Origin: Flexistipes sp.
GTDB taxonomy: Bacteria; Chrysiogenota; Deferribacteres; Deferribacterales; Flexistipitaceae
DNA: 61,398 bases
NCBI RefSeq assembly: GCF_036172515.1
Contig: NZ_JAXKVW010000016.1
Span: 1 to 61,398, forward strand
Direction of reading: 5' to 3'
Shown: positions 1,061-18,197 of the stretch, in pieces
Layout of the letters: each line of letters starts with the position of its first letter
How positions within the stretch are numbered: the stretch's first letter is position 1
The notes under the pieces: generated by a model
Told to the model about the DNA's origin: nothing
The model's database searches: none
What the model saw: the letters and a program-made list of their open reading frames with translations, nothing else
Position numbers and translations under genes: made by a program

Positions 1061-1243
1061 ATGAACAAAGATATTGCTTGTACAGACTGTGGCCAGAAAA
1101 AGAGTAATTATAAATTAAGGTACTTTACGCCTGAATTGGGTGATTTGGTGAATTCTGGTGAATTTGTCTGCGAAGAGTGTTTGGACAAAAGGATTAATAA
1201 CAAAAGAAAAGAAGCTTTTAAATTGGTGACTGCCGGTGGCTAA
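1061..1243 (+). CDS. Small Cys4 zinc-binding protein
   Basis: This 60-aa protein has CTDC near the N-terminus and CEEC about 32 residues later, a probable four-cysteine zinc site. It has a strong ribosome binding site (AAAGGAGAG) before ATG 1061. Its stop codon overlaps the start of the recombinase gene by 8 bases, so the two are probably translationally coupled. I do not recognise the family; it could be an accessory DNA-binding factor for the recombinase, which is inference from the overlap only. Confidence 0.6.
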   Translation: MNKDIACTDCGQKKSNYKLRYFTPELGDLVNSGEFVCEECLDKRINNKRKEAFKLVTAGG

Positions 1244-1856
1244 TATTCAAATTCCGGGTCTTCCTCAGTTAGCAGAAGAAGCAAGCAAGATAAAATATTT
1301 TGAAGAGGATGAACTTAATCGTCTGACTAAGGAATTTCAGGATTATTATGACAAGGCTAAAAAGAAAAAGAATGCCGGTAAATACTGGATCACATTTTTG
1401 TTTTTAAGATTCACCGGGGCGAGAATATCGGAAGTGTTAAACATAGATGACACAAAAGATATAGATTTCAGGAACAGCAGGGTAAAGCTGATAACACTGA
1501 AGAGGAAAAAGGGAAGAAAGATATATAGGACTGTCCCAGTACCTATCGAGGCTATAAACGAGCTTTTAAGATATCTTGCGATGTTTCCGGATATGAAAGG
1601 TGAAGTATTTAAACTAAGTCAGCCCAATTTCTACAAAAAAATGCAGGAAATTGGAAAAAGAGCAGAAATTGCTAAAGATAAGGTTCATCCACATGCATTA
1701 AGGCACACAAGGGCAATAGAACTAATAAATGCCGGTATGCCGTTGAATCATATTCAGGCACTGTTAGGCCATTCTTCAATATTAAATACTTCGGTATATT
1801 TGATAGTAACCGGCAAGGAACTGGAGACTATGATGAGGGAAAAGGGTTTGGTGTAG
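1236..1856 (+). CDS. Minimal tyrosine recombinase/integrase
   Basis: The 206-aa product is essentially a catalytic domain. It shows the tyrosine-recombinase residues in order: R63 in GARISEVL, a lysine-rich beta strand near residue 90, H153-x-x-R156-H157 in HALRH, H179 in LLGH and the nucleophile Y188. The GTG start overlaps the preceding gene. Most Xer and phage integrases have ~300 aa with an N-terminal core-binding domain; here only ~60 residues precede the first arginine, so that domain is reduced or absent. It lacks the extra domain of integron integrases, so it is not IntI. It may belong to an element carrying the downstream BREX locus, but no att sites were identified. Confidence 0.8.
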   Translation: MANIQIPGLPQLAEEASKIKYFEEDELNRLTKEFQDYYDKAKKKKNAGKYWITFLFLRFTGARISEVLNIDDTKDIDFRNSRVKLITLKRKKGRKIYRTVPVPIEAINELLRYLAMFPDMKGEVFKLSQPNFYKKMQEIGKRAEIAKDKVHPHALRHTRAIELINAGMPLNHIQALLGHSSILNTSVYLIVTGKELETMMREKGLV

Positions 1857-1895
1857 AATATCGATTTTAAAAACTTAATAAATTTATCAATAAAT

Positions 1896-3151
1896 CAAAG
1901 CTCTCCTACGTTTTTTTTATGTTATGGTGGTTGCCACAAAGGTTATTAAGGATATATAAAATAAAAATGTTCAAGTATTTTATCGGTGTTGATGTATCAA
2001 AAGATAAGTTCAATTTTGCAGTTATCAATGGTGACCTTGAGAACATTGACAATGGCTGCATTGAAATGAACAGGACTGGATTCGAGGAGTTTAAATCCAA
2101 GCTAGATTTTTACCAGGATATCATAATTGCTATGGAATCCACCGGCAGTTATCACATAAACCTGTTGTCTTTTTTAGGTGCAAACAATTTCAAAACAGCT
2201 CTTGTTAATCCCGCTTTGATAAAAAAATTTTCTGAGGGCTCAAGCCTGAGAAAGACAAAAACGGATGAGCTTGATGCTGTTACAATTGGAAAGTTTATAT
2301 TTAAAAATATCGAATATTTAGATCGCTTTGTTCCTTATTCGGTGGACGAGGTGACTGCATTGGCAAGGCTCAGGGAAAATATAGTAAAAGAGATAGCCAA
2401 AACAAAAACCCAACTCAAACAGAATTTGAATTTGGTATTTCCTGAGATTGTCAAAGAATGCAACATTTTCAATGATACAATTCTTAATATCCTTGAGGTA
2501 TTCCCTACCCCTGAAAGTATAAGAAAGGCTCCGAAGTCTAAATTGAAAGGAGTGTTTAACAAAGCATCGAAGGGCAAGAAGGGCAGGAATCTTTCTTTGA
2601 CTTATGATAGATTTAAAGAACTTGCCTTAGATTCCATAGGTATATCATCAGAAGGTTATGCAAAGATTGTGGAGCATAATATAAAAAGTCTTAAATTTCT
2701 TCAGAGCCAGCTTGAGGAGATTTCAAATGATTTTATAGATAAGATAAACGATTCCAAAAAAGATGATATGGAAATACTAAGTTCTATCAAAGGCATAGGA
2801 AATACCACAGCTGCTCATTTTATTGTAGAGGTAAGGGATATTAACAGATTTGAGAACAGGAATAAACTTTCTGCTTATGCAGGCATTGATCCCTCGTTCA
2901 AGGAGTCTGGTACTAGCGTAAATATCAAAGGGAAAGTAACCAAAAAGGGGAACAAATCCCTTCGGAGAGCGTTATATCTTATGGCCACTGGGGTTATGAA
3001 ATTCAATGATTATTTCAGGGCATATTATTTGAAAAAGAAATCAGAGGGGATGTCACACCGGAAGGCTATGATCGCACTATGCAATAAGCTACTGAGAACC
3101 ATATTTGCTTTACTTACAAGAAGAGAATTTTTCGTAATTAAATATAGTTGA
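1896..3151 (+). mobile_element. IS110-family insertion sequence (right end not defined)
   Basis: The element comprises a left-end block at 1896-1960 and one DEDD transposase gene. The left boundary is proposed because the block 1896-1960 recurs almost unchanged at 55586-55650 while the flanks differ. IS110 elements lack terminal inverted repeats, so the right end after 3151 cannot be fixed by eye. The family uses a noncoding end-encoded bridge RNA to choose targets; only ~70 bases of noncoding left end and an uncertain right segment are available here. Confidence 0.75.
1967..3151 (+). CDS. IS110-family transposase (DEDD type)
   Basis: The 394-aa product starts at ATG 1967, preceded by AAGGAT, rather than at the upstream in-frame ATG 1919, which lies in the conserved IS left end. 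The N-terminal RuvC-like domain has D9 (GVDVSK), E57 (AMESTGSY) and D100/D103 (KTDELDA), the DEDD tetrad. The C-terminal Transposase_20 region holds IKGIGNTTAAHFIVEV and an AYAGIDP...SGTS segment that carries the family serine. Full length and no internal stops suggest it could be active. It sits directly upstream of the BREX operon in the same direction. Confidence 0.92.
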   Translation: MFKYFIGVDVSKDKFNFAVINGDLENIDNGCIEMNRTGFEEFKSKLDFYQDIIIAMESTGSYHINLLSFLGANNFKTALVNPALIKKFSEGSSLRKTKTDELDAVTIGKFIFKNIEYLDRFVPYSVDEVTALARLRENIVKEIAKTKTQLKQNLNLVFPEIVKECNIFNDTILNILEVFPTPESIRKAPKSKLKGVFNKASKGKKGRNLSLTYDRFKELALDSIGISSEGYAKIVEHNIKSLKFLQSQLEEISNDFIDKINDSKKDDMEILSSIKGIGNTTAAHFIVEVRDINRFENRNKLSAYAGIDPSFKESGTSVNIKGKVTKKGNKSLRRALYLMATGVMKFNDYFRAYYLKKKSEGMSHRKAMIALCNKLLRTIFALLTRREFFVIKYS

Positions 3152-3401
3152 CTTATTTCTAAAGTTTCTAACAATTGGCTTTTATCAAAACAGAAATAGA
3201 ATTAGCTAAAGTGCTATTTTAAGTTTTTATTTATGATGAAATAAATATGAAAGAAATAAATGTGTTGAATTGTACAAGTAAACTACAGTGGAAAAATTAT
3301 TTTTGAAAAATCATCAACTTGCAGAGAATATATCCATTCGACTGGAAATCTATTGTCAGTTAAGTTACAATGTAATTGTTATTTTTCTCGGAGGAAATTA
3401 T

Positions 3402-6400
3402 ATGGCTAAAAATCAGAAAGAAAAGCTAAAAGACTTAAATTCTCTAATCTATCAGACTCAAAATATCACATATCATTTGCTTGCAATTATAGGCAGGGAT
3501 AAGAAAAAGCAAGATAAGATTATTAATTATTTAACAGATAAAGGCTGGCAGGTAGTAGACATTGAAGCAGAGTTTAGCAAACTGAAAAAGGAATATGAAA
3601 ACGAGATAAAAAATGAAGTTGATATGAGATCTAAGCTGAAAGAATGGTTTATGAAAATGCCGGATAAACTTATTCTTTTGCATGGTAGTATACTGTACTT
3701 AGATGATTTAACCAAGATTTCACCCATTGAGGCTTTCAAGTATAATACACGAGGTAAAAACTCAGTAGTAATGTTTTTGGATGATGAACAGAAGCTTGGT
3801 AACAGACTTTATTACGGAGAATTAGGTAATGAAAACCATTACGACAAAGAAATCAGAGATATTAATCTGGTACCCATCGAGGAAATTTCTGATGATTTCG
3901 AAAAGCACGAAGATACAATCAGAACACCAGATAAAAACCTTGAATATGATGTAGAAGATCTGCCTGATGATGCCATAGGGAGATATTTTAATTTTAAAAC
4001 GATTAAAGATGTAGTCGATATTGATACACTTAAGACTAAAGATCGTAAAAAGCAGGTAGTCAGCAGCTATATCTTTTCAGATAAACTGGAAGAGCAGGTT
4101 TCAGAATTTTTTGATGACTTAGTCAAGCCTGTCCACAAAGCAAGAAACATCATTGGTAATTACGGGAGTGGTAAATCGCATTTGGTGGCAATGCTTACAT
4201 CGATAGTCGAAAATCCGGAACTATCTGAATTTGTAAACAATAATAAGATTAAAGAACAATTAAAAACATATGACCGGAAATTCTATACGGTTTATTTTGA
4301 ATTACAGTCAGGACCAGTGGAATTAAGAAGATGGTTTTTTGATAAATGTAAAAGCCAGCTTGCGGAGAAGTATGACATACATATTAAAGAGTTTGATTTT
4401 GAGAAAGATTATGATGATAAGAAAAATATCGAATATGTGATTGAAAAAATCAAAGAGAAAGACTCCGCTGCCGGCTTACTTGTAGCAATTGATGAAATCT
4501 CAGACTTTTTGTCCATGAAGAATAAAGAACCCATGAAACAGGACTTACAGTTTTTAAGAGTAGTCGGACAGGTAGCCCAGGAAAATGACATTATGTTTGT
4601 CGGTTCTATGCAGGAAGATATTTTCAGCAGTTCTATGTTTAAAGAAGCTGCATCTGAGATATCCCGTGTAAGGGAAAGATTTCAAAATATAATCATAGTT
4701 AAAGAGGATGTAGAAAAAGTAATATCAGAAAGGATAGTATCCAAAACAAACGAACAAAAACATCATCTTGAAGAAAAATTCAAGCCTTTTTTAAAGAAAA
4801 TAGAAGATGTCGGCAATAATCTTAATAGCTATATAGACCTTTTTCCACTTACACCAACACTGATAGAAATGTTTAATTCCTTACCGTTTTTTGAAAAAAG
4901 AGGTGTGATCCAGTTTGCTGTATCTGAGATTAAGAAAAGTTTGGATAAGCCTTTCCCCTTCCTGCTTACTTTTGAGAAAATTTACGATATTATCTCCATA
5001 GACCCTAATAAAAAGAATCTACAGGAAGTATCAGACTATATCAGGGTTTCTTCCATACTTTTTGATAAGATCAAAAGCACTGTTGATAGAAAATATCAGG
5101 AAGATGCCATAAAAATTATAAAAGGTTTGGTTGTTTTATCTCTCAGGGATACTAATGAAGGTACAACAGCAAAAGAATTGGCAAATAAACTGATGCTTTT
5201 ACCTCACATGGAGAGTCTTTCCTCAGAAGATTATGTAAGCTTGATAATCAAAAAAATACGTGAAGCTTCCGATGGTCAATATCTCAAGATGCGTGATGAC
5301 AAATCCACTGGCTACAAATATATCACTCTTGACACGAAACTTGGCATAGATCCTGATGAAAAGATTCAGCAAAGAATTGATAGTGTTTCCGATGATGAAA
5401 TGGAACAGGAACTTTTTAGACAGCTTGAGAGATTATTAGAACTGGATATTCATCGCTATAAGAATATACCAGACGTATTTGAGGATGAATGCGAGTGGAA
5501 GAGTAAAAAGTCTTTTAGAAAAGGTTATATATTATTCAATAAAAAAGAAAATATTCTGACACAAAATTTGGGAAAAAGAGATTACGAGATAGTTTTTACT
5601 TCACCGTACTGTGATGAAAATGTTTCCCCTGTTGGAGATAATCAGCTTCAAATAAAAATCTCAATAAAAAGCGGGGATAATGTACACATTTTGAGGAAAA
5701 TAGCTGCGATCAGGCAGCTTTATAACTTAAACTTCCAAAAGACTATTATGGGAAAGAAATTAGATGAGGAAATAAATGGGCACAGAAAAGATGGTATCAT
5801 CCATACTGGTTTTGCCCACAGACTGTCAAAAATTATCGTTAACTATGGAAGCTTTATCCTCAATGATGAAAATATCAATATCTCTCATTATTTAACAACA
5901 AAAGATGCAGGCCTTTATGAGACTTTGGAAGAAATAAAAACCAATCTTTTTGATCCACTGTTTAACAGTAAATATCCCTTGCATCCTAAGTACCCTTCTA
6001 ATTTTTCATCTTTGAACATTGTAAAAACACTGGATAATCATCTTAACGAACTGCAAAAGGGCAATTTCAATAAACTGCAGCAAAATACTGTACAATTTCT
6101 CAGTTCATTAAAACTGCTTGATGAAAATAAATATCCCAGTATTTCAGAATCCCCTGTGGCAGAATTTATAATAAATACTATTAAAGACAAATCTGAACAG
6201 GCCGTTAAAATTGACGATGATATTGCCAGACCATTATCTGAAGGTGAATACGGTTTAGAGAAAGAGGTTGTTTACTTTATTCTGTCTTTAACAACAATAC
6301 TGGGGAAAACAATCTTGCAGGCAAAAGGCGGTATATCAATAAATATCGATAATATTCAGGGTAAGCTGGGTTCATTAAGTACCTTTGAAAATATCCTTTA

Positions 6401-7658
6401 TGTCAAGTTGGAGAAAAACCAGTCTTATGATACTGCAGCATTGATACTGAATGCTTTTGGAGGAAACGGAGATGAGATTTTAAATGATAAAACAAGGATG
6501 CGTGCTTTTAAAGATTACAAGGAAAAAGTCGCAGAAGTATTAAACAGTATCAAAAATATCCATGAAATTTATGACAAATTACAAAACAGGTTTGATTCTT
6601 ATATTAATCTTGAAGATGTCAGCAATGAGATAGAATCAATCAACGAAATAAAATGGGAAGAATTCGATCTGGCTAATGTAACTCAATTCTATAAGCTAAA
6701 ATCATATGAGAGAGACATTGCAAAAGTAAAGAATCTGATTAAAAAAATAGAAGATGTCGAAAGCGCACTGAATGAATATTTACAGATAAAACCCGATATC
6801 GAATATGTTCATAAGGCTAACGATTTGATTGAACAGAACAAATTTATTGTTACAAACACACAGAAAAGAAACAAAATAATGGAGTTATATGACAATATCA
6901 TCAGTGAATGCGGTGATTTTGCGTCGTTTATGGACATAGTCACAAGAAATGCTGTTAAAGGTAAAATCGACCAGTTCAAATCTATCTACAAAAAAGATAT
7001 CTACTATCCGGCACATGAGAAATATGTGGGTTCTAAGGTTGACTGGAAATCCCTGAAAGACCTTTTATATAATGAAACTTTCAAAAGATTGAATTTACTC
7101 AGCAGAGTTAAGTTTATCAACGATGTAAAACTTAATCAACTGACCTCAAAAGTCCGGGAGTTGACAGGAGTTGAGTGCAAAAACAAAGGACTTTTTGATG
7201 AACTGGACTCACACATATTTTGTCAGAAATGCTTTTTCCCGAAGGACGATATAAATTACTCATCGATATTATCTGAGATAAATAATATCGGAGATGAATT
7301 TGAGAAACTTTTGGAACAATATGAAAAAAATACGCTAAAGCATATCAGAGAATATAGAGATAATGTGAAATTTCTTGACAAAGACAGTGAAAAACAGCTT
7401 ATCAACGATATCCTAAAAAATGAAAAACTTCCGGATACTTTGGATACTGACACTGTTAACACTATAAATAAATTATTCCGTGAAATCTCAGTAGTGGATA
7501 TAAAAGAAGATGATTTTAAAAATAAGATTTTCCCCGGTGAAGAGATGTTTACTGTGGAAGAAATAGAAGAAAATTTTAATAAATTTTTATCCGATTTACT
7601 GGCAGGAAAAGACAAAGCAAATATTCGTATAAAATTGGAGAGTGGCAATGAAGATTGA
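3402..7658 (+). CDS. brxC: BREX type 3 BrxC ATPase with fused N-terminal BrxF-like domain
   Basis: The 1418-aa product starts at ATG 3402 behind GGAGGAAATT; an upstream GTG at 3288 adds 38 residues but has no ribosome binding site. Residues ~1-185 resemble BrxF: a degenerate P-loop position (AIIGRDKKKQ, ~28-37), then a LILLHG/LDDL strand, a VVMFLDD strand and a YGELGN...Y ending like the YAEPGH tail of BrxF proteins. From ~195 the BrxC part begins, with Walker A GNYGSGKS (252-259), Walker B LVAIDE (~360-365) and a long coiled-coil C-terminal half. BrxC is the large AAA ATPase of BREX defence. No separate brxF gene precedes it, supporting a fusion. It overlaps pglXI by 11 bases. Confidence 0.85.
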   Translation: MAKNQKEKLKDLNSLIYQTQNITYHLLAIIGRDKKKQDKIINYLTDKGWQVVDIEAEFSKLKKEYENEIKNEVDMRSKLKEWFMKMPDKLILLHGSILYLDDLTKISPIEAFKYNTRGKNSVVMFLDDEQKLGNRLYYGELGNENHYDKEIRDINLVPIEEISDDFEKHEDTIRTPDKNLEYDVEDLPDDAIGRYFNFKTIKDVVDIDTLKTKDRKKQVVSSYIFSDKLEEQVSEFFDDLVKPVHKARNIIGNYGSGKSHLVAMLTSIVENPELSEFVNNNKIKEQLKTYDRKFYTVYFELQSGPVELRRWFFDKCKSQLAEKYDIHIKEFDFEKDYDDKKNIEYVIEKIKEKDSAAGLLVAIDEISDFLSMKNKEPMKQDLQFLRVVGQVAQENDIMFVGSMQEDIFSSSMFKEAASEISRVRERFQNIIIVKEDVEKVISERIVSKTNEQKHHLEEKFKPFLKKIEDVGNNLNSYIDLFPLTPTLIEMFNSLPFFEKRGVIQFAVSEIKKSLDKPFPFLLTFEKIYDIISIDPNKKNLQEVSDYIRVSSILFDKIKSTVDRKYQEDAIKIIKGLVVLSLRDTNEGTTAKELANKLMLLPHMESLSSEDYVSLIIKKIREASDGQYLKMRDDKSTGYKYITLDTKLGIDPDEKIQQRIDSVSDDEMEQELFRQLERLLELDIHRYKNIPDVFEDECEWKSKKSFRKGYILFNKKENILTQNLGKRDYEIVFTSPYCDENVSPVGDNQLQIKISIKSGDNVHILRKIAAIRQLYNLNFQKTIMGKKLDEEINGHRKDGIIHTGFAHRLSKIIVNYGSFILNDENINISHYLTTKDAGLYETLEEIKTNLFDPLFNSKYPLHPKYPSNFSSLNIVKTLDNHLNELQKGNFNKLQQNTVQFLSSLKLLDENKYPSISESPVAEFIINTIKDKSEQAVKIDDDIARPLSEGEYGLEKEVVYFILSLTTILGKTILQAKGGISINIDNIQGKLGSLSTFENILYVKLEKNQSYDTAALILNAFGGNGDEILNDKTRMRAFKDYKEKVAEVLNSIKNIHEIYDKLQNRFDSYINLEDVSNEIESINEIKWEEFDLANVTQFYKLKSYERDIAKVKNLIKKIEDVESALNEYLQIKPDIEYVHKANDLIEQNKFIVTNTQKRNKIMELYDNIISECGDFASFMDIVTRNAVKGKIDQFKSIYKKDIYYPAHEKYVGSKVDWKSLKDLLYNETFKRLNLLSRVKFINDVKLNQLTSKVRELTGVECKNKGLFDELDSHIFCQKCFFPKDDINYSSILSEINNIGDEFEKLLEQYEKNTLKHIREYRDNVKFLDKDSEKQLINDILKNEKLPDTLDTDTVNTINKLFREISVVDIKEDDFKNKIFPGEEMFTVEEIEENFNKFLSDLLAGKDKANIRIKLESGNED

Positions 7659-10140
7659 TAAACCTTTGAGAGAATATTTGGATGAAATAAAAAAAATAGA
7701 GGGTTACCCACATGGCAGAGATGAGGATATTTTGGAGTTATCTGATCCGCCATATTATACAGCCTGCCCCAATCCCTATATCAATAAATTTATTGAAGAA
7801 TACGGCACTCCGTATGATGAAGAAACCGATAATTATCACAGAGAACCTTTTGTGGGGGATGTAAGTGAAGGGAAAAACGACCCCATCTATAATGCACACA
7901 CATATCATACAAAAGTGCCTTATAAGGCTATAATGAAATATATCGAACATTATACCGATGAAGGGGACATAGTATTTGACGGATTTTGCGGCACAGGTAT
8001 GACCGGAGTAGGTGCCCAAAAGCTGGGCAGAAAAGCTATTTTGTCTGATTTGTCACCTGCTGCCACCTTTATAGCATATAATTACAACACACCTGTAAAT
8101 GTAGAAGAATTTGAAAGTGAAGCAAAAAGAATCCTGGAAGAAGTGGAGGAAGAATGTGGCTGGATGTATGAGACAGATCATTATAAAGATGAAAAATACG
8201 ATGATGGCGGAAAGCATTTAGGTTCAGGTAAGATAAATTATACCGTATGGTCTGATGTGTTTTTATGTCCTTACTGCGGCGGTGAAATAGTATTCTGGGA
8301 TGCTGCAGTAGATAAAGAAAATGGCAAGGTGCTGAAAAATTTTGAATGCCCCTCATGTAGTGCAGAAATAACAAAAAACGAGTGTGAAAGATCATGTATA
8401 AAATTTTATGACCATGTTATAGGAAAAGAAGTGACACAGGCAAAACAAATACCTGTAATGATTAATTACTCATATGACGGGAGGAGATATGAGAAGACTC
8501 CTGATGAAAATGATTTCACCTTAATTGATAAAATAAATAGTATGGATATCCCGTATTGGTTTCCAACAAATGAAATGATGAACAAGGGGAGTAAATGGGG
8601 GGACACTTGGCGTAAAGGGGTACATTATGGAATAACTCATGTTCATCATTTTTATACTAAAAGGAATTTATGGATACTCGCTTGTTTAAAAGATAAATGT
8701 CAACCACCGTTAGCAAAATTGCTTTTTAATTCTCAGCTTATAAATATTAGCAAATTAAACAGAAGTAGACCAAGTGTAAGCTTCCCATATAACCCTTTAA
8801 GTGGGACACTTTATATTTCATCTCAAATATCAGAATCTAATGTTTTAATAGCATATTATAATAAAATAAAAAGAATTGTAAATGCAGCCAGAAATATACC
8901 TGACTCTTATAATATAATTTCTACTAATAGCTTAATTGAAAATAATATCAACAACCTAACAGTTGACTATATTTTCACTGATCCACCTTTTGGCGATAAC
9001 CTAATGTATTCCGAGTTAAACTTTCTTTGGGAAGCATGGCTGAAAGTTTTCACAAACAACGAATCAGAAGCAATTGTAAATAAAAGCCAGGGTAAATCTT
9101 TGGTTGAATATTCCGAACTTATGCTAAAATCCTTTCAGGAGTACTATAGAGTACTGAAACCTAAAAGGTGGATTACTGTAGTATTTCATAACTCAAAATC
9201 ATCCGTATGGAATGCAATACAGGAAGCCATGATAAAAGCAGGATTTGTAATAGCCAATGTCAGTATTCTGGATAAACAGCAAGGGTCTTTTAAACAGGTA
9301 ACCTCAACAGGAGCAGTGAAAAATGACCTTGTGATTTCCGCTTATAAACCGCCTAAGGGTTTTGAGAAACAATTCCTGGAAAATGCCGGAGAGGGTATGG
9401 AGGAAGACTTTATCAGGATGCAGCTGAATAATCTCACACCCACACCAAACATTGAGAGGACGGAAAAGATGCTGTATTCCAAAATGCTTTCATATTATCT
9501 GAGGCATGGATATATAGTCAGGTATGACTCAAGAGATTTTTATTCAATGCTGAAAGAAACATTTTATGAAGAGGATGGATACTGGTTTGCAAACAGAGAT
9601 CAGCTGGAAAAATACATGGAATACAAAAAGAAGATGAAATTAGACGGTATTGTTGATAGTGCCTATGCTGCCGAAAAACTTTTAGTATATGATGAAAAAA
9701 CTGCTATTATATGGCTTAATAACTTTCTTGAAGAACCAAAAGATTACAGCACTATATACACTTATTTCACAAAAGTCGCAAATATATCGGATGATGATAT
9801 ACCGGAACTGAAAGATATCCTGGAAAACAATTTTATTCCCGAGAACGATAAATACAGAAGACCATCGACTGAAGGTGAAGAGTTAAGAGTGAGACAAAAA
9901 CGAGAAAAGGAACTTATGAGGGATTTTAACTCATTATTTTTCGATGCCCAAAGTTCCAGGAAAAAAATTAAATCCTGCAGAAACGAGGCGCTTGTTTTCG
10001 GCTTTCAGACACTTTATCAGAAGGGCAACTTTGATGACATTCTTACGGTAGCCAAAAAGCTGGATAAAAGAATATTGGAAAGGAATTCTGAAATAAGAGA
10101 TTTTATAGAGATAGCAGAAATCAAAACAGGTAACATCTAA
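7648..10140 (+). CDS. pglXI: BREX type 3 DNA methyltransferase PglXI
   Basis: The 830-aa product starts at ATG 7648 (GGAG seven bases upstream), inside the end of brxC. It has an AdoMet motif I FDGFCGTGMTG at ~110-120, a zinc ribbon with CPYC (~207) and CPSC (~234), and catalytic motif IV DPPFGDN at ~445-451. The order motif I then DPPF and the inserted zinc ribbon fit the PglXI branch of amino-methyltransferases (N6-adenine or N4-cytosine). In BREX this enzyme marks host DNA for self-recognition. The second motif reads DPPF rather than NPPY, as in the DUF1156-type methylases. It is the second gene of the five-gene operon. Confidence 0.88.
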   Translation: MKIDKPLREYLDEIKKIEGYPHGRDEDILELSDPPYYTACPNPYINKFIEEYGTPYDEETDNYHREPFVGDVSEGKNDPIYNAHTYHTKVPYKAIMKYIEHYTDEGDIVFDGFCGTGMTGVGAQKLGRKAILSDLSPAATFIAYNYNTPVNVEEFESEAKRILEEVEEECGWMYETDHYKDEKYDDGGKHLGSGKINYTVWSDVFLCPYCGGEIVFWDAAVDKENGKVLKNFECPSCSAEITKNECERSCIKFYDHVIGKEVTQAKQIPVMINYSYDGRRYEKTPDENDFTLIDKINSMDIPYWFPTNEMMNKGSKWGDTWRKGVHYGITHVHHFYTKRNLWILACLKDKCQPPLAKLLFNSQLINISKLNRSRPSVSFPYNPLSGTLYISSQISESNVLIAYYNKIKRIVNAARNIPDSYNIISTNSLIENNINNLTVDYIFTDPPFGDNLMYSELNFLWEAWLKVFTNNESEAIVNKSQGKSLVEYSELMLKSFQEYYRVLKPKRWITVVFHNSKSSVWNAIQEAMIKAGFVIANVSILDKQQGSFKQVTSTGAVKNDLVISAYKPPKGFEKQFLENAGEGMEEDFIRMQLNNLTPTPNIERTEKMLYSKMLSYYLRHGYIVRYDSRDFYSMLKETFYEEDGYWFANRDQLEKYMEYKKKMKLDGIVDSAYAAEKLLVYDEKTAIIWLNNFLEEPKDYSTIYTYFTKVANISDDDIPELKDILENNFIPENDKYRRPSTEGEELRVRQKREKELMRDFNSLFFDAQSSRKKIKSCRNEALVFGFQTLYQKGNFDDILTVAKKLDKRILERNSEIRDFIEIAEIKTGNI

Positions 10141-10162
10141 TTTTGTAAAAAAGGCATTTTGA

Positions 10163-13030
10163 ATGAATGTTGGTGACGAAGTTAAAAGCAGACTATATCA
10201 GGATAAAGGTATAGCCATTGTAATCGGTTTTGATGAAATTTTCGGAGAAAAGCATGTAGAGTTACTTTTTGGTGATGGAAGCAGAATTACCACTAAGTAT
10301 GATGATATCATCCAGAAAAAAGACACATTGACTCTCTTATCTGAAAAACAGTTTGAAAATCCTTTAATCTTCATGGTCAATAATCTACTTTTGAAAATTG
10401 AAGAGAACTTATCTGAAGACAAAGTAGTAACTTCGGCAAATTTTAAGATAAAACCCCTGCCACACCAGCTTTTAGTCACAAACTTTGTAATAAATAAATT
10501 AAATCCAAGATGCTTAATTGCAGATGAAGTGGGTCTGGGAAAGACTATTGAAGCAGCCCTCGTGTATGAAGAACTGAAACTGAGAGGATTTATAAACAGG
10601 ACATTAATTGTCGTACCGTCAGGGCTTATTACACAGTGGCATGAAGAACTTTCCAATAAATTTAATGAACAGTTCGTAATCTACTCCAAAGAGTATGTAA
10701 GGGCATTAAAACAAAGCTATGGTGAAGAAACAAATGTTTGGACTCTTCACGACAATATTATTGCTTCTATAGATTCAGTAAAGCCGTTAAAAATCCATGA
10801 AAAATTATCAAAAGAAGAGAAAAAAAGACGTGAGTGGCATAATAGACATATATATGAAGATATTGGTAACGCTGATTTTGACATAGTAATCATAGATGAA
10901 GCCCACAAATTAAGTAAAAAAGAAAAAGGCGATGAGACTGCAAGATACAAGGTAGGTAAATCCCTAAGTGAGAGAATTCCTATTATGCTTCTTTTAACGG
11001 CTACACCCCACCAGGGGGATGCCGGATTATTTTTAAATCTGTTACGGCTTATAGACCCCTTTTTATTTATAAACGAAAAGTCACTTATTCCGGAAATTAT
11101 TAATGAAGTGGCTGTAAGAAATAAGAAACGTGCAGCTGTTGATTTTGACGGGAACCGAATATTCAAGGATCGCATTACCTCTATTATAGAAATTAAAAGG
11201 AATGAAAATAAAAATAGGGACGAAATAGAACTGTATAACAAGGTAACGGAATATACACAAACGTATTACAACATTGCTAAAGAAGAAGGTAACAAAGCTT
11301 ATATACTTTTAGTGATATTATATCAGCGGATAGTGTCTTCAAGCAGTTTTGCTGTATTAGCTTCTCTCAAAAGGAGACTAAATTTTCTGGAAAATTATAA
11401 TGAAAGGGTTGCTGAAATACAAAATCACTATAACAATGAAGAATTTGATGAGTTTGAATACAGCGATGAAGCTGACAGTAAAATACTGGAGATAGAACCT
11501 TTAAATGAAAAATACCTGGAAGTGGAAAAAAGATTTATAAAAGAATGTATAGCACTTGCTGAAAGAGTAACCCGGAATTTTTCGGATGTGAAGTTTGAGT
11601 ACCTGCTGGAAACAGTAAATGAAATTTGCAGACGTGAGGGTAAGGCTGACCTGAAATTCATAATTTTTACAGAGTTTAAAGCGACACAGGAAGCAATAAT
11701 CAAATATCTTGATAAACTGGGTTATTCTTGTGCATTATTGCACGGCGGACTATCCAGAGAAGAGAGAATTAATCAGATAGAAGATTTTAGAGAAAATAGT
11801 CAATTCCTTGTTTCAACAGATGCCGGTGGTGAAGGGATAAATCTGCAGTTCTGTTACTGTATGATAAATTTTGACTTGCCCTGGAATCCGGCAAGACTGG
11901 AACAAAGAATCGGTAGAATTGACAGGATCGGACAGGAAAAGGATGTCCGCATATTTAACTTTCAGCTTAAAGGTACAGTTGAGGACAGAGTGAGGGAAAT
12001 TCTTGAAACTAAACTGGAGTTGATAAAAACCCAATATGGAGATGATAAGTATTCCGATGTTTTAAGTCTTTTGGAAGATGAATTTTCATTTGATAAAATA
12101 TACGTGGATGCTTTTAATAAACTTGAAGCACTTGAGAAAGAAATCAACATAAAAGCAGAAGAGATATACAACAGGGCAAATGAAATTCTTAAGAATGATG
12201 AATTAATGCTGCCTTTTTCTAATTTTGAAGAGAATGCTGAGGACCTGCTAAATAACCGTTTACAGTTTCTTGTAAAACAGCTTGTTTTCGACTATTTGAA
12301 ATACAGGAAGATTGACATCAACAAGTATAAAGAATACGAAGATATGTATTTTTTTCACAACCCTTTTCCTCAGCTGAAAAATCTGCCAAATATTTTCAGA
12401 AAGGTTGCTTTTAAGCCTGATATAGCGATTGAGAACCAAAAAGCTGAGATAATAAATATAAAACACCCCATAATAAATCTTATAAAAAATGAAATCAGAC
12501 GTGATTCATTAGGTAAAGTTTCAGCATTAAAAGTTCGCATTAACAAGTTTGAAGGTATATCCGGGGTATGGTTTGTCTTTAAGTTAAATATCGGAAACAA
12601 TGTGAAGAGTAAGACTTTCAATATTTCCGTATTCATGGAAGATGATGAGTTTTATAATTGGAGAATAAGCAGGTATTTGGATGAGAATGTAATAGAAAAA
12701 TATGAACCTCTTCGCAAAATCACGAGTGATTATGATTTTCACAAGATGTATGCTAAAGCCAATGAAGAGGCAGACGCTAAAGCTGAAGAAATCTTTATAT
12801 CAATAAAGAATGAATGGATGGAAGGTATTGAGAAATATGAAAGAAAACTTTTCGATTATTACCAGTTTAAGCGTAACAGCATTACTGAGGTTGCTATTTC
12901 GAACATACGGGAAAGTAGGCTGAGAAGTATTACCAAAGAAAAGGAAAATCAACTTTTAAGTCTTGAGAAACAGAAAAACATCATTCCTAAAATTCAGCTG
13001 TCTCAGGCCGCTTTTTTGGAGTTTGAATAG
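10163..13030 (+). CDS. brxHII: BREX type 3 SNF2-type helicase BrxHII
   Basis: The 955-aa product has the SF2/SNF2 motifs: DEVGLGKT (121-128), DEAH (245-248), LTATPHQGD (motif III), a STDAGGEGINLQ motif V and QRIGRIDRIGQ (581-591, motif VI). The C-terminal ~350 residues are helical and charged with no obvious domain. SNF2 helicases of this size replace BrxL in type 3 BREX systems. It begins 22 bases after pglXI and abuts pglZ, whose GTG start immediately follows its stop. It probably translocates on DNA during phage restriction; the exact role is not established. Confidence 0.88.
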   Translation: MNVGDEVKSRLYQDKGIAIVIGFDEIFGEKHVELLFGDGSRITTKYDDIIQKKDTLTLLSEKQFENPLIFMVNNLLLKIEENLSEDKVVTSANFKIKPLPHQLLVTNFVINKLNPRCLIADEVGLGKTIEAALVYEELKLRGFINRTLIVVPSGLITQWHEELSNKFNEQFVIYSKEYVRALKQSYGEETNVWTLHDNIIASIDSVKPLKIHEKLSKEEKKRREWHNRHIYEDIGNADFDIVIIDEAHKLSKKEKGDETARYKVGKSLSERIPIMLLLTATPHQGDAGLFLNLLRLIDPFLFINEKSLIPEIINEVAVRNKKRAAVDFDGNRIFKDRITSIIEIKRNENKNRDEIELYNKVTEYTQTYYNIAKEEGNKAYILLVILYQRIVSSSSFAVLASLKRRLNFLENYNERVAEIQNHYNNEEFDEFEYSDEADSKILEIEPLNEKYLEVEKRFIKECIALAERVTRNFSDVKFEYLLETVNEICRREGKADLKFIIFTEFKATQEAIIKYLDKLGYSCALLHGGLSREERINQIEDFRENSQFLVSTDAGGEGINLQFCYCMINFDLPWNPARLEQRIGRIDRIGQEKDVRIFNFQLKGTVEDRVREILETKLELIKTQYGDDKYSDVLSLLEDEFSFDKIYVDAFNKLEALEKEINIKAEEIYNRANEILKNDELMLPFSNFEENAEDLLNNRLQFLVKQLVFDYLKYRKIDINKYKEYEDMYFFHNPFPQLKNLPNIFRKVAFKPDIAIENQKAEIINIKHPIINLIKNEIRRDSLGKVSALKVRINKFEGISGVWFVFKLNIGNNVKSKTFNISVFMEDDEFYNWRISRYLDENVIEKYEPLRKITSDYDFHKMYAKANEEADAKAEEIFISIKNEWMEGIEKYERKLFDYYQFKRNSITEVAISNIRESRLRSITKEKENQLLSLEKQKNIIPKIQLSQAAFLEFE

Positions 13031-14476
13031 GTGAAGTTTATAGATCAATATATACAAAAGCTTGATCTGGATAAACCTTATAAAAAGGTCATTGTTGACC
13101 GTTTTTATTTTATACATGATGATGATATTCAAGATTTTCTCGGCATAAACAATATCGATTATGAAATTGCAGACACTTATGATGATATAGTCCTTTTATC
13201 CAAAGAAAATCCTAATGTATTTTTAAGATCTGAAAACCTGTTAAAGAATGAGACAGTTCAATTAATTTCTAAAAGATTTAATGTAAACTTTTATAATGAA
13301 AACAGCCTGCCTTTTGTTATAGAGAACAGCCTTTTAAATACTCGGTCTTTGGAAAACATAAGAAAGGTTATCAAATACAACTTTTATAAAAAAATCGAGT
13401 ATAGTTTTATTAATAAAGGTAATTTCGATTTAATATTAAAAGAAAGCAGGAAGTCCGATCTCCTTTATGAGAAAAATCAGCTGTCCGGCAGAATACGAAG
13501 GTTATCGTCTAATTTAAGTAATTACGATGACATTATAAAAGTCGGAGAAATGTACGGTAAGCTTAACTATTTATCGTATATTTTGGATTCAGATATTGAC
13601 AGAGAGTTAGTTGCAGAAATGGATGAGGGTGTCAAAAATTTTATACTTCAAGGGGGTATAAAAGATGCTTTTTATTCGTCTGTAAATAACCTTAAAACAG
13701 TAAATAAAATTACCGGCTACATAGATAAGAATCAACCTGAAAAATTTGCATTAATCTGTTTTGACGGGATGGGTGTTTCTGAATGGGAGTTACTGAAAAG
13801 TTTTCTATCACAATATAATATCAGTACAAATGAAAGGTATCTATTTTCTTTGATACCCACAACGACAAAAATTTCCAGAACATCAATTTTTTCCGGTCAA
13901 TATGAAGCTGTCTATGGAAATAAAAAAATTGATGAAAACAGAGAATTTGAACGGCAATTCCCAGAACTATCTACAAAGTCATTTTCGGAAGGTGAAATAA
14001 AATCTGGAGATGACTTAATCGGAATAGAGGGCGTAAAATTAATATATAACGTTTTTGATGAATGTGCCCATGGTGCAGTTATTAATCCAAATAACAAAAG
14101 CAAAACCGGTTTTTTCAAAATGGCAGAAGACTACCTTTTAAACTCCACTATTTTTAAAGAGATAAACATATTGAAAGCATGTGGTTATATAATTTACATC
14201 TGTTCTGATCATGGAACTGTTGTGGCTGAGGGTAATGGAGATAAAGTAGAGAAGTATTTGATAGAAGAAAGCTGTAAAAGAGGTGTTATTGTTTCTGAAA
14301 CAAGTTTACTGAAAAACTATGATTTGGATAAATACGATATACCTTTTATAAAAGGAAAATATGCATTATTGTCCACAAACAGACATTCCTTTTCATATAA
14401 GGGAAAACTTGATATAACTCACGGCGGAATAACGGTGGAAGAATTAATTGTTCCTTTTGCGGAGGTTGAGAATTGA
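13031..14476 (+). CDS. pglZ: BREX protein PglZ (alkaline phosphatase superfamily)
   Basis: The 481-aa product starts at GTG 13031, directly after the brxHII stop, with GGAG ten bases upstream. The C-terminal half is the PglZ domain: FDGMG with D245, an ISRTSIFSGQ segment, CSDHG (D393-H394) and THGG (H464) followed by EELIVPF. These are the metal-ligand positions of the alkaline phosphatase fold. PglZ is the marker protein of all BREX systems. At ~480 aa it is shorter than the ~800-aa PglZ of type 1, as is common in type 3. Its stop overlaps the TTG start of brxA. Confidence 0.92.
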   Translation: MKFIDQYIQKLDLDKPYKKVIVDRFYFIHDDDIQDFLGINNIDYEIADTYDDIVLLSKENPNVFLRSENLLKNETVQLISKRFNVNFYNENSLPFVIENSLLNTRSLENIRKVIKYNFYKKIEYSFINKGNFDLILKESRKSDLLYEKNQLSGRIRRLSSNLSNYDDIIKVGEMYGKLNYLSYILDSDIDRELVAEMDEGVKNFILQGGIKDAFYSSVNNLKTVNKITGYIDKNQPEKFALICFDGMGVSEWELLKSFLSQYNISTNERYLFSLIPTTTKISRTSIFSGQYEAVYGNKKIDENREFERQFPELSTKSFSEGEIKSGDDLIGIEGVKLIYNVFDECAHGAVINPNNKSKTGFFKMAEDYLLNSTIFKEINILKACGYIIYICSDHGTVVAEGNGDKVEKYLIEESCKRGVIVSETSLLKNYDLDKYDIPFIKGKYALLSTNRHSFSYKGKLDITHGGITVEELIVPFAEVEN

Positions 14477-15183
14477 TAGGTTTCGACAGACCCATTAAAC
14501 CCGAATGGATATACAATATTTTAAAAGAAATAAAAGTGGGCACCAATCCTACCGAATACAATAAAGTTTTTGAGGATGTTGCGAAGGAATTAACCGGCAA
14601 AGAGGGCAAGAGAAAGGCAAGAACGGTTATTTTCAGAAGCTTTCTTTATTCATTTCAGGAAAAAAGGGCGCCCATTGAGAATAATATTTTCTTAGATTGG
14701 GTGAAGCAATACAGTGAACATAAATTGCGCCCATTGTTCCTTGCGAAGCTGATGATGGATCATGAGGTTTTGAGGTTTATTACCAAAAAGATGCAAATAA
14801 GTTATGATTCTCAAGGGTATTTATCTTCAACGGTGCTAACGAAAAAAATGCAATCCGAACATGGAGACAGAGATGTTGTAAAAAGGTCTGTAAGATCATT
14901 TCTGAAAACACTCTGTCATTTTGGTATAATTGAAGAAATACAGAGGCAGCGGTTTAACCATCTTAACAAAGTCAGGCTTTCAGAAGAACAGACAAAGAAC
15001 TTCCTCCTTTTGTACTCCAAATGCTACCTGAAATCCGAATATCTCGATTTAAATAATGTTGATAGTAATTTGACTTACTTTTTTGAAATGCCGGACTTGT
15101 TAAAAGTCGCTAATATTTATAATAACAAATGCTGGAGTTATATCCGGGATCATACACGTGCAGTTTTGATGATGAAGGGATGA
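14473..15183 (+). CDS. brxA: BREX protein BrxA
   Basis: The 236-aa product starts at TTG 14473, overlapping the pglZ stop by four bases, with GGAGG eight bases upstream. It is a helical, basic protein with a central LTKKMQSEHGDRDVVKRS segment and the position at the end of the operon expected for BrxA in type 3 BREX. BrxA is a DNA-binding winged-helix protein related to the RNA-binding NusB fold. The sequence alone is weakly conserved, so the call leans on gene order and size. No terminator follows within 50 bases. Confidence 0.8.
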   Translation: MIGFDRPIKPEWIYNILKEIKVGTNPTEYNKVFEDVAKELTGKEGKRKARTVIFRSFLYSFQEKRAPIENNIFLDWVKQYSEHKLRPLFLAKLMMDHEVLRFITKKMQISYDSQGYLSSTVLTKKMQSEHGDRDVVKRSVRSFLKTLCHFGIIEEIQRQRFNHLNKVRLSEEQTKNFLLLYSKCYLKSEYLDLNNVDSNLTYFFEMPDLLKVANIYNNKCWSYIRDHTRAVLMMKG

Positions 15184-15791: not shown

Positions 15792-15972
15792 GTATCTTTA
15801 GACGTAAGCTTCCCTTAAAAGCGGACATTTCAAAATCAGCTAATATTTGTAATTAGATGATACCACTAGTCATTTGCTAAAATGAATAATACATAAGTTT
15901 CCTTAAAATATCATATTGATATATTTCAACAAAATGAAGTAATATATTTAAAATTATTCAATAGGGTTGCAT

Positions 15973-17043
15973 ATGGTGGATAAATTACCATTAGAAAACT
16001 ATATCGGATGTTTATTGGGTGGAGCAGTTGGTGATGCTTTGGGTGCTCCGATTGAATTTGATACTTGGGAGGAAATCAAGTCAAGATATGGGGTTAAAGG
16101 CGTAACCGGATATGTTGAATTTGAAGACGGACATGGAGAATTTACAGATGATACACAGATGACTCTTTTTACCGCTGAAGCTATGCTCAGAACATTATAC
16201 AGAGCCAATTCTCGTGGAATATGGGGTGCAATAAATACAATATGCTTTCATTGCTACTGCAACTGGCTCAAAACTCAAGGATATGACAAACCCAATACAA
16301 AATTTCAAGACAGTTGGTTATTGCAAGTTGATGGTTTATACAAAAGAAGAGCTCCCGGTAACACTTGCCTTACTGCACTTTTAGAAACTGAAGATTACAA
16401 ACCGGGGACTATATTAAATAACAGTAAAGGCTGTGGCGGTGTTATGAGAGCTGCACCAGTTGGCTTGGTTTTTTATAAAGATCTGGAGTTTGCATTTGAA
16501 AATGGTGTCATTGCAGCACAAATAACGCACGGTCATCCAAGCGGATACCTGTCAGCCGGTTTTTTTGCAGCTTTAATTGCAGCATTGAACTCAGGGGTGA
16601 GTATCGAGAAGGCTGTAAAGGAGTGCATGGCAATACTAAAAACACAAGAAGATTCTGAAGAATGCTTATCAGCTTTAAACAAGGCAATCAAACTATCTGA
16701 AACGAAAGAACCGTCAGCTGAAAATATTGAAACACTTGGAGGTGGCTGGGTTGGTGAAGAAGCTATTGCAATAAGTTTATATTGTTCTCTGTATTATAAA
16801 GATAATTTTGAAAAAGGTTTAATTTCATCAATAAATCATAGCGGCGATAGTGACAGTACCGGCTCTATAAGTGGGAATATTTTAGGCTTGATTCACGGTG
16901 AAGCAGCTATCCCCAAAGTTTGGGCTGAAAATTTATATCTGAAAGATGTGGTAATAAGAATGGCAGAAGACCTTTATATAGGTTTTGAAGATGATGGAAC
17001 CGGAATGGGCAGTGAAAGATGGTTTGAAAGGTATGGTACATAA
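15973..17043 (+). CDS. ADP-ribosylglycohydrolase (DraG-like)
   Basis: The 356-aa product starts at ATG 15973 behind AGGG. It shows the DraG-family binuclear metal signatures: GCLLGGAVGDALGAP near the N-terminus, FTDDTQ with D59 and D60, and GDSDSTGS with D292 and D294 near the C-terminus. Enzymes of this family remove ADP-ribose from arginine, from nitrogenase reductase (DraG) or from DNA (as in DarG-like or TARG-like systems). No nitrogenase genes or DarT-like toxin are visible here, so the substrate is unknown. Its place within a defence-rich island makes a stress or phage-related role plausible. Confidence 0.85.
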   Translation: MVDKLPLENYIGCLLGGAVGDALGAPIEFDTWEEIKSRYGVKGVTGYVEFEDGHGEFTDDTQMTLFTAEAMLRTLYRANSRGIWGAINTICFHCYCNWLKTQGYDKPNTKFQDSWLLQVDGLYKRRAPGNTCLTALLETEDYKPGTILNNSKGCGGVMRAAPVGLVFYKDLEFAFENGVIAAQITHGHPSGYLSAGFFAALIAALNSGVSIEKAVKECMAILKTQEDSEECLSALNKAIKLSETKEPSAENIETLGGGWVGEEAIAISLYCSLYYKDNFEKGLISSINHSGDSDSTGSISGNILGLIHGEAAIPKVWAENLYLKDVVIRMAEDLYIGFEDDGTGMGSERWFERYGT

Positions 17044-17108
17044 TTTTGATAATCCAATATATAGCTGAGTTATTGTTTTACCGAGTAAGTATTTAAAGGA
17101 ACTAATCG

Positions 17109-18197
17109 ATGCCAACCGACTTATCAAACATAATGAGCAAAATCAAAAAGCACATTTTCAACAAATACCCCCGATATTTCAATAATCTCGACGAAGCCGA
17201 AATTTTGTATTTAGACAAAAAGATGGTGAATAACACTCTTTCCCAATTGGATATTACTTTGCCGGATTTGCTTGATTTTGAGCATAAAGAGCTTGTTGTG
17301 ATGCCACCTTCGGAAAATATGCTTTATCTTATGTATTCGCCCTCATATGAAGAAATGGATGAAGAGCACGGGCAGCAGTTTGAGCAAGACATGGAAAAAG
17401 AGCTTGAGCATTTTGCAAAAGATTTTAATCTGACTGAGGAAAAACGGGCAGATCTTAGAAACAACTTAATCAAAACAATAGGGCAGGGAACTTATTACTT
17501 GTATCACTTTAATCGTTCTTTAATGGAAAACCGGAAGTTGAAATTTAACACTTTTGAGTATTATCCTGCCACTGAGGAATTTAGGTATATCTTCGGTTCT
17601 GAGTTCAGTATTGTAGATTTGACTATAAAAGAGAACAAAATCAAACCTGAACTTGACATTAGAAAATTTGCATTCTCGAAATATGCTCTCGAAAACATAA
17701 TTAAAGATTCAAATGTAACCATATTTATTAAAAATAATGCAAAGAGTGGTGATCCTTTTTTCCCGGAAGGATATGTTGAAACTATTACCAATGATATGCC
17801 GGCTAAGTTGTTTGCAGAAATCCAGAGACATATGAAAGAGTCCACGCATGATCTATTTTTTCCCAATGCTATAATTAATACAAAAATATTTTTGAAAGTT
17901 GAGGAAACTCAAAAATTGACAGCAAAAGAGCATAACAGGCTTGAAAAAACAAAACACAAAAAGCCGTATCTTATGCCTCAGAGCATTAAACATATTATTG
18001 ATATAGATATGTTTAACAAGACGGTTATTGACAAAGCAAACAGGTTGAGTGGAACCGGCAGTCAAAAATCTCCCCATTACCGGCGTGGACATATCAGGCG
18101 ATTGCAATCCGGCAAGCTGACTTTTGTACGCCCTTCATTTGTCGGGGCAAAGAAAGAGTATAATATAGGAAAGAAAATATACAGGCTGAAAACCTGA
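17109..18197 (+). CDS. Uncharacterised 362-aa protein with RRGHIRR C-terminal motif
   Basis: ATG 17109 follows AAAGGA. The product is rich in charged residues, with no membrane segment. The last ~45 residues read HYRRGHIRRLQSGK followed by TFVRPSFVG and a basic end. A similar (H)RRGH-RR…R/KP..VG tail occurs in phage and plasmid hypothetical proteins, including some annotated as AcrVA2-like; that likeness is from memory and weak. The rest matches nothing I recognise. The gene stands alone between the DraG-like gene and an IS remnant. Confidence 0.6.
   Translation: MPTDLSNIMSKIKKHIFNKYPRYFNNLDEAEILYLDKKMVNNTLSQLDITLPDLLDFEHKELVVMPPSENMLYLMYSPSYEEMDEEHGQQFEQDMEKELEHFAKDFNLTEEKRADLRNNLIKTIGQGTYYLYHFNRSLMENRKLKFNTFEYYPATEEFRYIFGSEFSIVDLTIKENKIKPELDIRKFAFSKYALENIIKDSNVTIFIKNNAKSGDPFFPEGYVETITNDMPAKLFAEIQRHMKESTHDLFFPNAIINTKIFLKVEETQKLTAKEHNRLEKTKHKKPYLMPQSIKHIIDIDMFNKTVIDKANRLSGTGSQKSPHYRRGHIRRLQSGKLTFVRPSFVGAKKEYNIGKKIYRLKT

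Follow-up and report, generated by a model that had tools for sequence, protein, structure and literature searches.

The 61,398-nucleotide stretch of Flexistipes sp. DNA analysed here (the window) carries a complete phage-defence operon of BREX type 3, with its brxF and brxC merged into one gene. One continuous frame joins a BrxF domain to the BrxC ATPase, no free BrxF accompanies it, and the fusion traces to a single origin and occurs in at least six phyla. It is rather likely that the BrxF domain of this merged operon acts as a BrxB-like regulator tethered to BrxC. The first-pass annotation had recognised the gene order of type 3 BREX, with the usual small brxF gene missing and a BrxF-like N-terminus ahead of the BrxC ATPase, and on these points it was right. 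The order brxFC–pglXI–brxH–pglZ–brxA is found at 3402–15183 with all reading frames intact (Table 1). A single BrxF match occurs genome-wide, inside the fusion frame; neither the locus nor the rest of the genome, which is 99.8% complete, has a second brxF. Since this sole match lies inside the 1418-aa ORF, the operon is a variant of type 3 BREX.

Table 1. Features of the merged type 3 BREX operon, in window coordinates
Feature	Position	Strand	Basis
Shine–Dalgarno sequence GGAGGA of the brxF–brxC fusion gene	3390..3395	+	Read from sequence
brxF–brxC fusion gene, 1418 aa	3402..7658	+	ATG at 3402; stop-free frame; fusion also in 12 other loci
BrxF domain (alpha/beta P-loop domain, probably inactive, with beta cap), residues 11–158	3432..3875	+	PADLOC, NCBIfam, AF2
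Degenerate Walker A, residues 31–39, GRDKKKQDK, no GxxxxGK[ST]	3492..3518	+	Sequence
Linker, residues about 159–191 (~33), sequence variable	3876..3974	+	Alignment; dN/dS
BrxC ATPase, residues 192–1413	3975..7640	+	Pfam DUF6079; PADLOC BrxC, E=1e-171
Intact BrxC Walker A GNYGSGKSH, residues 252–260	4155..4181	+	Invariant in 13/13 fused proteins
pglXI (brxX), N6-adenine methyltransferase	7642..10140	+	PADLOC PglXI PDLC02541, 990 bits, E=2.5e-298
brxHII-type Swi2/Snf2 helicase, RapA-like	10163..13030	+	PADLOC PDLC02500, E=3.7e-195; NCBIfam RapA and DrmD secondary matches
pglZ, short form, 481 aa	13031..14476	+	PADLOC PglZ PDLC02555, E=1e-33
brxA	14473..15183	+	PADLOC BrxA PDLC02449, E=2e-49

The window has the DUF6079 BrxC, PglXI-type methyltransferase, BrxHII RapA-like helicase, PglZ and BrxA expected of type 3 BREX; a separate small brxF gene is not found in it. 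Compared with the standard arrangement (brxF–brxC–pglXI–brxHII–pglZ–brxA), the components and their order are identical, with BrxC, PglXI, BrxH, PglZ and BrxA all matching BREX models, but here brxF and brxC are one gene and PglZ is of a short, 480-aa form. The gene ends overlap or almost touch (7642/7658, where the start of pglXI overlaps the stop of the fusion gene, 10140/10163, 13030/13031 and 14473/14476), which indicates a tight operon. The pglXI product carries the motifs FDGFCGTG and TDPPF, read from the sequence. The best PADLOC model for the helicase spans BrxHI and BrxHII, with a description that reads BrxHI; the protein also matches SNF2 in Pfam, and this match, together with those to RapA and DrmD, agrees with the RapA-like BrxHII of PMC12839542. 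The window PglZ scores 150 bits against NCBIfam BREX_PglZ_3, below its cut-off of 250, and is without the insert of approximately 170 aa common in type 3 PglZ, as is the case in all fused loci with PglZ in reach. The short PglZ was considered as a hallmark of the fusion and rejected, being present also in split lineages, e.g. Enterococcus and Clostridium (Bacillota). No match to BrxB was found in the whole window genome. Immediately upstream of the operon, at 1236-3151, are a tyrosine integrase and an IS110-type transposase, consistent with a mobile defence island. Downstream, at 15967-18197, on the same strand and after a 780-bp gap, are genes for an ADP-ribosylglycohydrolase (Pfam E = 4e-76) and for a protein of 362 aa that matches nothing in Pfam, PADLOC or PHROGs.

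Searched separately, the two parts of the chain match BrxF and BrxC/DUF6079 respectively, as the first-pass annotation had anticipated. Neither of the two findings that would have refuted that annotation, a lack of BrxF similarity in residues 1–190 or a separate brxF, was made. Residues 1–190 match PADLOC BrxF PDLC02498 by themselves (71.5 bits, E = 1.7e-20, profile positions 3–143 of 158), with homology over residues 11–153 and thus across the whole domain. The NCBIfam model BREX_3_BrxF NF033453 gives 43.9 bits for residues 1–190 (E=1.8e-11) and 40.5 bits for the whole chain; these scores are below the curated cut-off of 50, which suggests a divergent member of the BrxF family. Modelled with AF2, with plasmid-derived rows excluded, the BrxF domain was predicted confidently (pLDDT 89.9, pTM 0.85) as a P-loop-like alpha/beta core with additional strands as expected for the beta cap. 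The motif YGELGN, previously taken for the end of BrxF, is present at residues 138–143 but is inside the beta cap, the domain extending to about residue 158. A PDB sequence search with BrxF returned Midasin-type P-loop matches only. Residues 191–1418 match Pfam DUF6079 with 625 bits (E about 2e-187 to 4e-187, matched part 194–1413) and do not match BrxF. The BrxC part also retains its Walker B (DE), and R422 and R426, aligned to K326/R330, the arginine fingers in Acinetobacter BrxC (PMC13326643), are invariant in all 13 fused proteins. The AF2 model of residues 1–620 (pLDDT 89.1, pTM 0.80) has as its best PDB matches 9zll (type I BrxC with BrxB and PglZ), 9zdx (a BrxC dimer) and 9zn5 (an engineered BrxC–BrxB fusion).

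When 84,980 species genomes were scanned with an alignment of BrxC, 80 loci emerged, ranked by their similarity to the window, so that more fusions are possible in distant BrxC lineages. The relatives were found by this alignment-based scan and not by a single-protein scan of genome contigs. The earlier suggestion to survey split and fused forms proved productive, with many split loci and 12 further fused loci in one clade (L011–L021 and L023; 38–48% identical), each with a BrxF of 176–208 aa in frame upstream of BrxC. The BrxC start AIG.LF is conserved in these 12 loci, and all 12 genomes have one BrxF match each, within a frame of 1399–1431 aa, and no free BrxF. The hosts belong to the Calditrichota, Spirochaetota, Cloacimonadota, Bacteroidota and Thermodesulfobacteriota, plus one MAG named 'Deltaproteobacteria' and one bacterium without assignment; Sediminibacterium sp. 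C3, with a 3.2-Mb scaffold, is at least one host that lacks a MAG label. Nearly all of the remaining loci in the scan have a separate BrxF ORF immediately 5' of a separate BrxC, and in the plasmid type 3 operons examined the two genes are likewise separate, in most with an annotated gap of ~10–20 nt. Even-draw surveys of five phyla and the Deferribacterota (1,302 genomes) added one fusion (G1251, Cloacimonadota, truncated by the contig end) against about 45 split loci. The fusion is therefore a rare variant. No fused form was found in phages (tblastn), plasmids (tblastn of residues 1–190) or viral contigs (scan). One candidate for a fusion of second origin, G586, with an open frame of 1353 aa, was ruled out by its separate 223-aa BrxF ORF.

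In a BrxC tree built without the fusion columns, the 13 fused proteins form one clade with 100/100 support, present in 100% of bootstrap trees. Its neighbour is the split system of Halanaerobium congolense, followed by split archaeal and Anaerolineae systems. With a root placed among the split lineages, the separate state would be ancestral and the fusion a single event. The PglX and PglZ trees recover the fused clade (99 in each); in the BrxA tree, with too few columns to decide, the fused rows are not cleanly monophyletic (2 changes). Because the clade is the same in the BrxC, PglX and PglZ trees, it seems that the operon was passed between phyla as a whole.

The P-loop of the BrxF domain had been described as degenerate, which is correct, although this is not peculiar to the window protein: GxxxxGK[ST] is missing in 13/13 fused proteins and in 34 of 69 stand-alone BrxFs. 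In every fused BrxF a Thr, Val or Leu stands in place of the Walker B Asp, which 27 of 35 aligned split BrxFs keep. With both the Walker A and this Asp gone, NTP binding has probably been lost throughout the fused clade. The other 35 of the 69 stand-alone BrxFs, about half, have an intact Walker A, a poor fit to the description of BrxF generally as an inactive NTPase. Residue R117 is Arg in 13/13 fused proteins, and 33 of 35 split BrxFs have Arg or Lys there, which makes it the best candidate for a conserved contact.

The literature yielded no experiments on any type 3 BrxF or BrxC. In type I BREX, BrxB is an inactive AAA+-like protein that binds the BrxC AAA+ domain with ATP, blocks the site of BrxC self-association and so competes with it, stimulates BrxC ATPase activity and bridges to PglZ by binding its N-terminus (PMC13326643). 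A BrxB mutant unable to bind BrxC loses restriction and largely keeps methylation, and BrxC:BrxB:PglZ complexes of both 2:1:1 and 2:2:2 have been measured (PMC13326643). Like this core complex (9zll), the window protein would pair a BrxC AAA+ domain with a small, probably inactive AAA+-like partner. In the engineered fusion 9zn5 (PMC13326643) BrxB was placed C-terminal to a truncated BrxC, BrxC(1–551), whereas the fusion in the window is natural, with the small partner N-terminal and BrxC full length. PMC12839542, a BREX survey of 2026, describes in its main text iSTAND fusions in PglW (type 2) and PglZ (type 4) BREX, which also place a BrxB/BrxF-like inactive module inside another BREX protein; those join effector proteins, whereas here the scaffold ATPase BrxC is joined. 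The same text gives 1200–1300 aa as the size of BrxC, and its passages that were searched mention no BrxF–BrxC fusion. Within the literature covered, including the main text of that survey, the monophyletic BrxF–BrxC fusion is an unreported variant of type 3 BREX.

Two papers propose that BrxF is to type 3 BREX what BrxB is to type I (PMC10164562; PMC12839542). The comparisons made here are weak: hhalign of BrxF with BrxB gave a probability of 9% (P = 0.0036), and in a Foldseek search with BrxF alone the matches were all ORC/DnaA-like, none with E better than 0.04, BrxB being absent among the 50 matches listed. The counterpart relationship would therefore derive mainly from those two papers. 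The arginine finger of BrxB, R182, is paired in this weak hhalign alignment with D148 of the fused protein; 13/13 fused proteins have Asp at that position, and 20 of 35 split BrxFs have Arg or Lys. If this alignment is right, the docking chemistry may differ and the BrxF–BrxC contact may have been rewired in the fused clade.

By analogy with type I, the fusion most likely hard-wires a BrxB-like regulator to BrxC at 1:1. The BrxF domain would play for BrxC the role of BrxB: inactive and AAA+-like, it would dock on the BrxC ATPase domain, keep BrxC–BrxC stacking in check and form the bridge to PglZ. The linker of ~33 residues would keep one copy of BrxF permanently present per BrxC, and a switch between idling (methylation only) and restriction would be set by conformation and nucleotide state rather than by binding and release of free BrxF. 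The points counted in favour of this explanation include the matches of the two halves to separate families, the lack of any free BrxF, the single fused clade, the in-frame sister-species remnant, the invariant R422 and R426 and the PDB matches. The fusion had been expected to fix the stoichiometry of the two proteins. It does so in the primary chain, at 1:1, which by itself is no proof of a 1:1 ratio in split systems.

A further-reaching reading is that the fused lineage is a distinct BREX-3 subtype, in which a once-dissociable regulator has become a permanent in-cis cap, with loss of NTP binding and possibly of the arginine-finger position, and no BrxF release switch. This is tentative, with the balance somewhat against it. 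If true, the switch from idle to active could not use BrxF binding and release, since BrxF is tied to BrxC. A 2026 study of type I BREX proposes that the balance of idling and restriction is set by BrxC self-association versus BrxB binding, and the fused lineage is a natural test of this competition model; if the fused system still restricts phage, free partner exchange is not required. It likewise allows a test of whether BrxF and BrxC work as a fixed pair, and gives structural studies of type 3 BREX, on which biochemistry is scarce, a single polypeptide instead of two. As the NCBI BrxF model falls below its cut-off in the window, annotation pipelines can miss a fused BrxF and such operons may be recorded as being without brxF.

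The BrxF part could instead be a mere tether or adaptor that recruits PglZ or DNA and is not docked on the BrxC ATPase, an alternative considered unlikely. The loss of the Walker A and of the Walker B Asp in every fused BrxF would suit it, as would the Asp aligned weakly to BrxB R182 in all 13, and in type I the PglZ N-terminus is a further binding partner of BrxB (PMC13326643). However, BrxB in type I does both, bridging to PglZ and docking on BrxC, the conservation of R117 hints at a kept contact, and the pTM for residues 1–620 suggests a fairly definite domain arrangement in the predicted structure. It is very improbable that separate BrxF and BrxC persist through post-translational processing of the fused chain or through an internal start that yields free BrxC: the variable sequence and ~33-residue length of the linker would allow this, but the window protein has no in-frame start codon at residues 141–240, and no junction start codon is conserved across the fused clade.

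That a lost stop or a frameshift in assembly or sequencing makes separate brxF and brxC genes look fused, which one error could do given split-locus gaps of just 10–20 nt, can be dismissed in view of the lack of an in-frame start codon at the window junction, the same fusion in twelve independent genomes with the AIG.LF start and no free BrxF, and a remnant in the complete genome of a sister species. In a set of 51 genomes from the phylum, this one (G015, taken as Flexistipes sinusarabici) was the sole further carrier. It has kept the 5' end of the gene alone, residues 1 to about 200 with 91% identity, and has CTCGGGGGAAATTATATG at the site matching the window Shine–Dalgarno sequence. The remnant stays in frame from BrxF through the linker into the start of BrxC, and past residue ~200 the sequence is abruptly unrelated, adjoining a type III restriction–modification system. 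There are 33 synonymous and 22 non-synonymous changes relative to the window, with a dN/dS of 0.125 (0.103 for residues 1–160 and 0.178 for residues 161–204). These substitution counts show purifying selection across the joined segment. The fusion is older than the split of the two Flexistipes species and, with the remnant in frame at this dN/dS, is no assembly error.

At the sister-species locus (L010:4327-10310) the BREX operon has been lost except for the remnant of BrxF and linker, with a type III restriction–modification pair and a type I HsdM-like fragment alongside, as if one defence system had been replaced by another at the same site. Several of the Bacteroidota fused loci (L016, L017, L018, L019 and L021) have no match to a BrxH helicase beside the operon, and in L021 the neighbours are a Piwi-domain protein and then a large cold-shock-domain protein. 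In the Calditrichia locus L011:13690-15603 the fusion gene is directly followed by a QatA/KAP-type NTPase, with no pglX within the contig, and this may be a decayed or rearranged BREX.
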